Positions 16,901 through 19,134 of a stretch of 64,000 nucleotides of DNA are shown piece by piece. Position 1 is the first letter of the stretch; each line of letters opens with the position of its first letter. Under the pieces are notes generated by a model. That model searched no databases. It saw only the letters and a list, made by a program, of their open reading frames with translations, and was not told the origin of the DNA. The DNA comes from Aurantiacibacter spongiae. Lineage in GTDB: Bacteria; Pseudomonadota; Alphaproteobacteria; Sphingomonadales; Sphingomonadaceae. The translations under genes were made by a program, and so were the position numbers. Where the stretch lies: positions 1,488,001 through 1,552,000 of the forward strand of contig NZ_RPFZ01000001.1 of NCBI RefSeq assembly GCF_003815535.1, in the 5' to 3' direction.

Positions 16901-17623
16901 ATGGCACGAGTAGCAGTCGTTACGGGCGGCACGCGCGGCATCGGTCGCGCCATCTGCGAATCCCTTCGCGAAGAGGGTTTCACCGTCGTCGCGAATTACG
17001 CCGGCAACGAGGAGAAGGCGCGCGCCTTTACCGACGAAACGGGGATCGCCGCCTACAAGTTCGACGTGGGCAGCTTCGAGGATGCCCAGGCCGGTTGCCA
17101 GAAGATCGCGGACGAGGTCGGCCCGATCGACGTGCTGGTCAACAATGCCGGCATCACCCGCGACGGCACGCTGGCCAAGATGAGCCAGGAGGACTGGGAC
17201 GACGTGATGCGCGTCAATCTCGGGGGGTGCTTCAACATGGCCAAGGCCTGCTTCGACCACATGAAATCCCAGAAATGGGGCCGGATCGTCAATATCGGCT
17301 CGATCAATGGGCAGGCGGGGCAGTACGGCCAGGTCAATTACGCCGCCGCCAAGAGCGGCATTCACGGCTTCACCAAGGCGCTGGCGCAGGAAGGCGCGCG
17401 CTACGGCATCACCGTGAATGCCATCGCGCCCGGCTACATCGATACCGACATGGTCGCGGCGGTGCCGGATACGGTCCTGGAGAAGATCGTCGCGCAGATC
17501 CCGGTCGGCCGGCTTGGACGGGCCGAGGAAATCGCGCGGGGTGTGCGCTTCCTCGCGTCGGAGGACGGCGCCTTCATCACCGGCTCCACCCTGTCGATCA
17601 ATGGCGGACAGCACATGTACTGA
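16901..17623 (+). CDS. phbB: Acetoacetyl-CoA reductase
   Basis: PhbB reduces acetoacetyl-CoA to (R)-3-hydroxybutyryl-CoA with NADPH for polyhydroxybutyrate synthesis. The 240-residue SDR has TGGTRGIG at residues 8-15, NNAG near 81-84, and the catalytic S134, Y147 and K151 (VNYAAAKSG). NIGSINGQAGQYGQVNY is typical of PhbB rather than FabG. GGGAG precedes the ATG. No thiolase or PHB synthase gene adjoins it, so the rest of the pathway must be encoded elsewhere. Confidence 0.92.
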   Translation: MARVAVVTGGTRGIGRAICESLREEGFTVVANYAGNEEKARAFTDETGIAAYKFDVGSFEDAQAGCQKIADEVGPIDVLVNNAGITRDGTLAKMSQEDWDDVMRVNLGGCFNMAKACFDHMKSQKWGRIVNIGSINGQAGQYGQVNYAAAKSGIHGFTKALAQEGARYGITVNAIAPGYIDTDMVAAVPDTVLEKIVAQIPVGRLGRAEEIARGVRFLASEDGAFITGSTLSINGGQHMY

Positions 17624-17633
17624 CGGGCGGCCG

Positions 17634-17900
17634 GTGGACGAGATCTATCATCCGCCGGTCAAGCGGTCGATCGAGATCGCCGGGCACAAGACCTCGGTCA
17701 GCCTCGAACCGCTGTTCTGGGATCTGCTGCGCCGCGAAGCCGACCGCGCCGACCTGCCCCTCAACGCGCTGGTCGCGCGGATCGATGCCGAACGCATAGC
17801 GGTGGCGAACCCGCCGGGGCTCGCCACCGCGATACGTTTATGGCTGGCGTCCCGCCTCACCGAAAGCGAGGGCCGGACGCTGCCGGAGAAGGATCAGTAA
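17634..17900 (+). CDS. Ribbon-helix-helix (RHH_4-type) protein
   Basis: This 88-residue protein reads VKRSIEIAGHKTSVSLEPLF near the start, then a helical part with LLRREADRADLPLNALVARI and a C-terminal IRLWLASRL. That pattern fits the small RHH_4 ribbon-helix-helix family, putative DNA-binding proteins common in alphaproteobacteria. The GTG start lies 10 bases after the phbB stop, so it is probably in the same transcript. The 3' end overlaps the convergent small gene by 7 bases. Targets are unknown. Confidence 0.8.
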   Translation: MDEIYHPPVKRSIEIAGHKTSVSLEPLFWDLLRREADRADLPLNALVARIDAERIAVANPPGLATAIRLWLASRLTESEGRTLPEKDQ

Positions 17901-18136
17901 TTGGCGGGCGGATCGCTGGCGGGGAAGGTCTCGTCCAGTTCCTCGTCCGTTTCGGTCCATTTGCGATTCGGTTCGTCTGCCATCGCGCCGGGACCGGAAT
18001 CGCGCACCTGGTGGCGGTTTGGCCCACCGGCCTGCCCCTTAGCGAAGGCCTCGTTCTGCGACGCGTAGTTTTTCTCGTAATACTTGTATCCGGCATAGCC
18101 GAGCGCTCCGAGAGCGGCGAGTCTTAGCAAAGCCAT
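17894..18136 (-). CDS. Small stress-type protein with DETFPASDPPA tail
   Basis: An 80-residue protein with an N-terminal hydrophobic stretch (LLRLAALGALGYAGYKYY) and a hydrophilic tail ending LDETFPASDPPANY. This tail motif is seen in small proteobacterial proteins of unknown role that are often stress-linked. ATG at 18136 is preferred to one eight codons upstream because AAGGAGG lies directly before it. A candidate EcfG-type promoter sits 27 bases upstream, which would place it in the general stress response. Confidence 0.75.
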   Translation of the reverse strand: MALLRLAALGALGYAGYKYYEKNYASQNEAFAKGQAGGPNRHQVRDSGPGAMADEPNRKWTETDEELDETFPASDPPANY

Positions 18137-18162
18137 GATGGCCTCCTTTCCTTTGCCCACTC

Positions 18163-18187
18163 AACGCGCGGCTATCGCAAAGGTTCT
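18163..18187 (-). promoter_or_regulatory. Candidate EcfG (general stress sigma factor) promoter
   Basis: On the minus strand AGAAC and CGTT are separated by 16 bases. The alphaproteobacterial EcfG consensus is GGAAC-N16/17-CGTT, so there is one mismatch. The CGTT lies 27 bases upstream of the ATG at 18136, which gives a short leader that includes the AAGGAGG site. Spacing and gene type both support the call. Confidence 0.5.
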
Positions 18188-18258
18188 TTGGTAGAGTGAC
18201 GAATTCATACTGATTGATATGGTTGACCGCGCCGGCCCGAACACCCAAACCCGCGCGC

Positions 18259-19134
18259 ATGAGCACGCAAAAACCCATCCGCAAGGCCGTCTTCCCCGTG
18301 GCGGGGCTGGGCACCCGGTTTCTTCCGGCGACCAAGGCCATCCCCAAGGAATTGCTGCCGATCGTCGACCGTCCGCTGATCCAGTATGCGGTTGACGAGG
18401 CGCGGGAGGCGGGGATCGAACAGATGATCTTCGTCACCGGGCGCGGGAAGACCGCCATCGTCGAGCATTTTGACATCGCCTACGAACTCGAAACGACGAT
18501 GGAGGAGCGGGGCAAGGATCTCGCCGTGCTCGATCCGACACGGGCGACGCCCGGCGACATCATCACCGTGCGCCAGCAGGTGCCGCTGGGGCTGGGCCAC
18601 GCGATCTGGTGCGCGCGGGCCATCGTCGGTGACGAACCGTTCGCGATCATGCTGCCCGACGAGCTGATGGTCGGCGAACCGGGTTGCATGAAACAGATGG
18701 TCGATGCTTACGAGGCGGTCGGCGGCAACCTCATCTCGGTGCTGGAAGTCCCGCATGACGAGGTTTCGAGCTATGGGGTGATCGATCCGGGCGAGGCGGA
18801 CGGCGCGCTGACCGAGGTTCGCGGGCTGGTGGAAAAGCCGCCGGCCGACGAAGCCCCGTCGAACAAGATCATCTCCGGTCGCTACATCCTCCAGCCGGAG
18901 GTCATGCGAACGCTGGAAACGCAGGGCAAGGGCGCGGGCGGGGAAATCCAGCTGACCGATGCGATGGCGCGAATGATCGGCACCCAGCCGTTCCATGCGG
19001 TGACGTTCGCCGGCAATCGCTACGATTGCGGCAGCAAGACCGGCTTTGTCGAAGCGACGCTGGCGCTGGCTCTCGAACGGGCGGACATGGGTAGCGAGAT
19101 ACGCGAAATCGCGCAGCGTCTGCTACGCGATTAG
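18259..19134 (+). CDS. galU: UTP-glucose-1-phosphate uridylyltransferase
   Basis: GalU makes UDP-glucose from UTP and glucose-1-phosphate for envelope polysaccharides. The 291-residue protein has the nucleotidyltransferase motif VAGLGTRFLPATKAIPKELL near its start, the LPDELMVG metal site, VEKPP, and GNRYDCGSKTGFVEA near the C-terminus. The ATG at 18259 gives the usual length; no clear ribosome site precedes it, which is unusual here. It converges on the M23 peptidase gene. It is not linked to a capsule cluster but serves the glycan genes elsewhere in the window. Confidence 0.96.
   Translation: MSTQKPIRKAVFPVAGLGTRFLPATKAIPKELLPIVDRPLIQYAVDEAREAGIEQMIFVTGRGKTAIVEHFDIAYELETTMEERGKDLAVLDPTRATPGDIITVRQQVPLGLGHAIWCARAIVGDEPFAIMLPDELMVGEPGCMKQMVDAYEAVGGNLISVLEVPHDEVSSYGVIDPGEADGALTEVRGLVEKPPADEAPSNKIISGRYILQPEVMRTLETQGKGAGGEIQLTDAMARMIGTQPFHAVTFAGNRYDCGSKTGFVEATLALALERADMGSEIREIAQRLLRD

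Follow-up and report, generated by a model that had tools for sequence, protein, structure and literature searches.

An EcfG-type promoter with a systematically off-consensus -35 box predicted upstream of a conserved small FPASDPP-tailed protein of sphingomonads

In alphaproteobacteria, EcfG serves as sigma factor of the general stress response, and in the established scheme PhyR draws NepR away from EcfG under stress. The locus considered here, from an Erythrobacter-like bacterium, raises the question of whether a small gene belongs to this response, given that the element in front of it departs from the ideal EcfG site by a single base. The original prediction, made on a 64-kb stretch of DNA (hereafter the window), held that an AGAAC-N16-CGTT string one mismatch from the EcfG consensus lies 27 bases before a well-supported ATG, and that this links the small protein to the general stress response. 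The question has some wider bearing. A positive answer would bring a conserved small protein without a name into the predicted general stress response of sphingomonads and would supply, for comparison, a promoter that has stayed off consensus and can be tested by single base changes. The locus also draws attention to a short tail that unrelated proteins share and that no family model was found to cover.

Direct reading of the minus strand places AGAAC at 18187..18183, followed by a spacer of 16 nt and CGTT at 18166..18163, the whole element thus occupying 18163..18187. The string is therefore present as originally described and does precede the ATG, although the distance from CGTT to the A of the ATG at 18136 is 26 nt and not 27 bases. 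Its -10 box (18163..18166) is an exact CGTT, its spacer lies within the range of about 16-17 nt that characterizes EcfG-dependent promoters and equals that of the ecfG regions discussed below, and its -35 box (18183..18187) differs from GGAAC in the first base only, with AAC intact; published sites show variation too. Downstream of the element a ribosome-binding site, AAAGGAGG (18142..18149, minus strand), precedes the ATG of a gene for an 80-aa protein, MALLRLAALGALGYAGYKYYEKN...DEELDETFPASDPPANY (17894..18136, minus strand, stop included), which ends in DETFPASDPPANY and can also be given as MALLRLAALGALGYAGYKYYEKN...WTETDEELDETFPASDPPANY. An in-frame GTG is also present at 18160; the homologues do not call for it, and full-length homologues with identities of up to 75% back the 80-aa frame.

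The element sits in the gap between this gene and a divergent nucleotidyl transferase gene (18259..19131, plus strand; PF00483, E = 7.2e-26), which we take to be galU-like. It persists in two different gene neighborhoods. In the window and in loci L037 and L038 the galU-like gene runs divergently from it, whereas it lies downstream of murA on a Qipengyuania citrea plasmid, where the order is murA, small gene, ribbon-helix-helix gene, DUF4019 gene and phbB, and where the element reads GGACC-N16-CGTT. Beside the small gene on its other side, the window carries a short-chain dehydrogenase gene (16901-17620, plus strand) and an RHH_4 ribbon-helix-helix gene (17634-17897, plus strand), and the phbB and ribbon-helix-helix genes near the Q. 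citrea plasmid copy form a set similar to this pair.

Taken by itself, the string is weak evidence and not significant: AGAAC-N15-18-CGTT is seen three times in the 64-kb window against 1.0 expected, a count reached by 10 of 100 shuffles, and the number of canonical GGAAC sites there is what chance predicts (3 versus 2.15). As the string alone is not rare enough, its relatives were examined, and it is placement and conservation that are significant. Within 100 nt upstream of the start, an element with at most one mismatch to GGAAC-N16/17-CGTT is found in 63 of 77 homologous genes, these related sequences not being independent of each other; 8 of the 63 are exact, including one (L062, at -87) that is probably not the real element, 55 have one mismatch, and 14 of the 77 genes lack the element at this threshold. 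The same search succeeded in 5 of 829 windows taken from farther upstream in those loci, in 4% of upstream sequences after shuffling and in 5 of 77 reverse complements, while scrambled motifs of the same letters gave a mean of 1.2 and a maximum of 8 out of 77. Inspection of the homologues, the check that accompanied the original prediction, thus came out in its favor. The homologue search had yielded 78 places, with 8 weak ones excluded (one of them inside L089), and the 77 genes derive from 78 loci (L001, L037-L044, L047-L115), among which L108 and L113 lack the tail pattern and L089 holds two genes; the aconitase-like L045 and L046 were excluded, and L043 was given a GTG start by hand. By eye, L108 and L113 show GGAAC-N17-CGTT and GGAAC-N16-TGTT, respectively.

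In 47 close-homologue elements with a 16-nt spacer, information content ranges from 0.98 to 2.0 bits in the -35 columns and from 0.13 to 0.52 bits across the spacer, with the exception of its first three columns, next to the -35 box (0.68 to 0.96), and of one column close to its end (0.77). The -10 box is CGTT in 45 and CATT in 2 of the 47, partly by construction, since the anchors were chosen as CGTT or CATT. As judged from this alignment, the boxes are more conserved than the spacer, with place and spacing constant in front of most homologues while the spacer sequence varies, the box columns being high partly because the elements were picked by their likeness to GGAAC and CGTT.

The regulatory apparatus that such a promoter would require is present. 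The window's genome encodes NepR (PF18557), an EcfG-like ECF sigma factor and PhyR (PF22029, PF22233); the NepR match is the gene before ecfG and overlaps it, and an exact GGAAC-N16-CGTT lies upstream of both nepR-ecfG and phyR. PF07638 has no match in this genome although EcfG is present. In the same genome GGAAC-N16/17-CGTT sites number 47 against 26 for the reversed pattern; 17 of 30 sites examined precede a plausible start, and the genes behind them include matches to the PhyR, OsmC, Pyrid_ox_like and Transgly_assoc models. Across the family, 134 of 149 genomes have an EcfG match (E <= 1e-40) and 68 a homologue of the small protein, the latter occurring in 67 of the 134 EcfG genomes versus 1 of the 15 others by hand count, several of these 15 being incomplete assemblies; G138 has FPASDPP genes and no EcfG match at E <= 1e-40. 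In another genome (G137), the FPASDPP gene of L113 and an ecfG-like gene are about 0.9 kb apart, separated by what read as genes for a GlsB/YeaQ-like membrane protein and a small lipoprotein-like protein.

Some more distant FPASDPP genes are also preceded by such sites. Exact GGAAC is found in Henriciella (L039, L041-L044), in L103, L107 and L108, in other alphaproteobacteria (L154, L158, L165, L169), and on plasmid genes of Pseudooceanicola, Gemmobacter, Roseinatronobacter and Roseivivax. Outside the family, an element with at most one mismatch precedes 6 of 25 alphaproteobacterial loci in one set (27 named and 26 scored, L168 being without the tail pattern and L179 being of the family) and 2 of 6 in another (20 loci scored, of which 3 belong to the family, 6 are from other alphaproteobacteria and 11 are non-alphaproteobacterial), L182 among these outside loci having been scored from a start that looks wrong; no site within one mismatch was seen at any of the 11 non-alphaproteobacterial loci. 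Among 12 plasmid loci scored, a number that does not include L216, 4 sites are exact, 2 have one mismatch and 6 have two to four; two plasmid loci, L208 and L210, lie directly behind an SDR gene.

From these comparisons we predict, with a probability of roughly 0.85, that RNA polymerase carrying EcfG uses the element as a promoter, with an off-consensus -35 box in the close homologues. What makes the EcfG reading convincing is the contrast of the homologues with both the control windows and the scrambled motifs. Together with the NepR, EcfG and PhyR genes, this conservation renders EcfG control of the small gene a well-supported prediction, and the proposed link to the general stress response gains support at the level of sequence. 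Under stress, PhyR would take NepR off EcfG, the EcfG holoenzyme would recognize AGAAC/CGTT, and the small gene would be transcribed from a start just downstream of CGTT. We infer not only recognition and stress induction but also a degree of tuning, in that the departure of the -35 box from GGAAC would most likely give lower expression, or demand more active EcfG, than is the case for a strong target like nepR-ecfG.

What the original prediction missed is that the mismatch in the -35 box is systematic in the close homologues, which are often one step from the ideal. These 61 homologues, grouped by full-length similarity and not by orthology, comprise 52 with an element 20-50 nt before the start, 8 without an anchor and 1 with a poor element. 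The 52 boxes read GGACC (34), TGAAC (8), AGAAC (3), CGAAC (1), GAAAC (3), GATAC (2) and GGAGC (1), that is, 34 GGACC, 12 NGAAC with a first base other than G and 6 others, and in no case GGAAC; this absence is not an artefact of selection, because the script would have preferred a GGAAC box. By contrast, GGAAC is exact in all 30 ecfG regions examined (the best 30 of the family's EcfG matches), and in 25 genomes where both regions were read the ecfG region has GGAAC every time and the small-gene element is off consensus (hand count). A protein tree, poorly resolved on account of the protein's shortness, implies 14 changes of -35 state; the states cluster more than shuffled labels do, and fewer changes are enforced when only well-supported branches are counted. 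Among 79 -35 boxes of Sphingopyxis granuli, no more than 3 depart from AAC (PMC7083833), which disfavors GGACC as a strong EcfG box, whereas in S. melonis off-consensus boxes, such as CGAAC and once GGACC, are given as putative sites of EcfG-dependent genes, one example being CGAAC-N17-CGTT 28 nt before a hypothetical gene with a log2 value of -3.2 (PMC6599016). As a possible link to an FPASDPP gene, the 26-base site of S. melonis #3278 (CGAAC-N17-CGTT) was sought in 295 genomes from the genus to which G091 belongs, presumed to be Sphingomonas, and gave no match with up to two mismatches.

Two readings fit these boxes, namely a weakened EcfG promoter that has been kept, or use by another sigma factor. 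A different ECF sigma factor or an EcfG paralogue with GGACC as its own specificity would account for the want of GGAAC in the close homologues as against its constancy in the best-matching ecfG regions, and for the base after CGTT, which is G in 37 of 47 elements versus CC in the 30 nepR-ecfG sites; moreover, the 24 genomes tested have 3 to 12 Sigma70_r2 genes each. Nevertheless, G026 argues for the weakened EcfG promoter, because only three Sigma70_r2 genes were found there, RpoD- and RpoH-like by length and EcfG-like by position, and yet the element is present as GGACC-N16-CGTT, with the proviso that a divergent sigma factor may have escaped detection. The window's genome, with four Sigma70_r2 genes that by length and setting read as RpoD, RpoH, EcfG and a second ECF, likewise gives this alternative little purchase, the second ECF lying in a locus with a multicopper-oxidase-like gene and, by reading, having no related site upstream. 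Nor does a wider regulon for the extended motif show: strict GRACCYTT-N13-CGTTG occurs at 45 places in the 149 genomes versus 48 for the reversed-pattern control (summed by hand), and 15 of the 45 immediately precede a homologue of the small gene, so that such a regulon was rejected. We regard a separate sigma factor as unlikely. Still more improbable is a chance match, or a regulator's site or housekeeping promoter without EcfG dependence, for although the frequency of the string in the window and its mismatched -35 box would allow this, all the conservation controls speak against it, and a simple scan found no sigma-70-like promoter in 17600-18400, nor was there an Rfam match at gathering score in 17400-18700. 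As a separate observation, a weak second homologue in G126 (C1:631843-632030) has GGACC-N16-CGTTG just upstream, so that a paralogue may share the promoter.

The 80-aa protein matches none of the Pfam or NCBIfam families, and the 88-aa reading gives one Pfam match far below the cut-off. Of 61 close homologues, 57 have a hydrophobic N-terminal stretch as judged by a simple rule on hydropathy, the tail of the window's protein is acidic (net charge -7 over the last 30 residues), and a low-confidence AlphaFold2 model (mean pLDDT 56) shows a helix at 3-37 and no structure from residue 48 on. The protein is probably a single hydrophobic helix, which we infer to be inserted in the membrane, with an acidic flexible tail ending FPASDPPANY.

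The FPASDPP tail, approximately the last 14 codons (17897..17938, minus strand) as delimited from an alignment of 23 sequences, extends well beyond this protein. No Pfam or NCBIfam model matched the tail above its cut-off, NCBIfam returning for the 23 tails one weak match to one member (E 0.064) and no curated family; PASDPP was not found in the text collection searched, nor FPASDP among the papers listed. The tail profile finds PDB 6grv (E = 1.9e-4), which we take to be the P. fluorescens Q2-87 metallothionein and which ends in DEALEETFPASDP; the match covers the tail only, the preceding part being cysteine-rich and metal-binding there, unlike the hydrophobic helix here. One study describes a disordered C-terminal tail in Pseudomonas metallothioneins, and reports that the Q2-87 protein is induced only in stationary phase and is useful in long starvation (PMC7387436). 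FPASDPP also ends OsmC-like proteins and, in Skermanella, an SDR enzyme; some small proteins have two copies of it, and it lies inside genes of two actinobacterial MAGs, Mycobacterium and Kutzneria, that read as aconitase-like; the main parts of all these proteins are unrelated to that of the window's protein. The occurrences in unrelated proteins are L166, L170, L171, L173-L175, L205, L045, L046 and PDB 6grv. One idea is that FPASDPP is a portable motif common to such proteins, serving either for recognition or as a flexible protective tail.

A more ambitious and decidedly tentative proposal would join the two themes: the EcfG promoter may have been selected to stay off its optimum in sphingomonads, as a natural stress promoter tuned weak, and FPASDPP may be a widespread, unnamed short linear motif on small general-stress proteins, metallothionein, OsmC-like and SDR proteins and inside aconitase-like ones, recognized by a shared partner, for instance a protease adaptor, a chaperone or a scaffold. 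Selection off the optimum is suggested by the 14 changes among -35 states, counted on the poorly resolved tree, with none of the 52 present-day elements at GGAAC.

Two minor observations concern the further occurrence of these sequences. In the window's own genome GGAAC-N17-CGTT lies 128 nt before the start of an aconitase-like gene (L028), possibly a coincidence with the FPASD-bearing actinobacterial aconitase-like genes. As regards viruses, there was no match to the motif among 50,697 phage records, and four viral contigs (L217-L220) encode FPASDPP.
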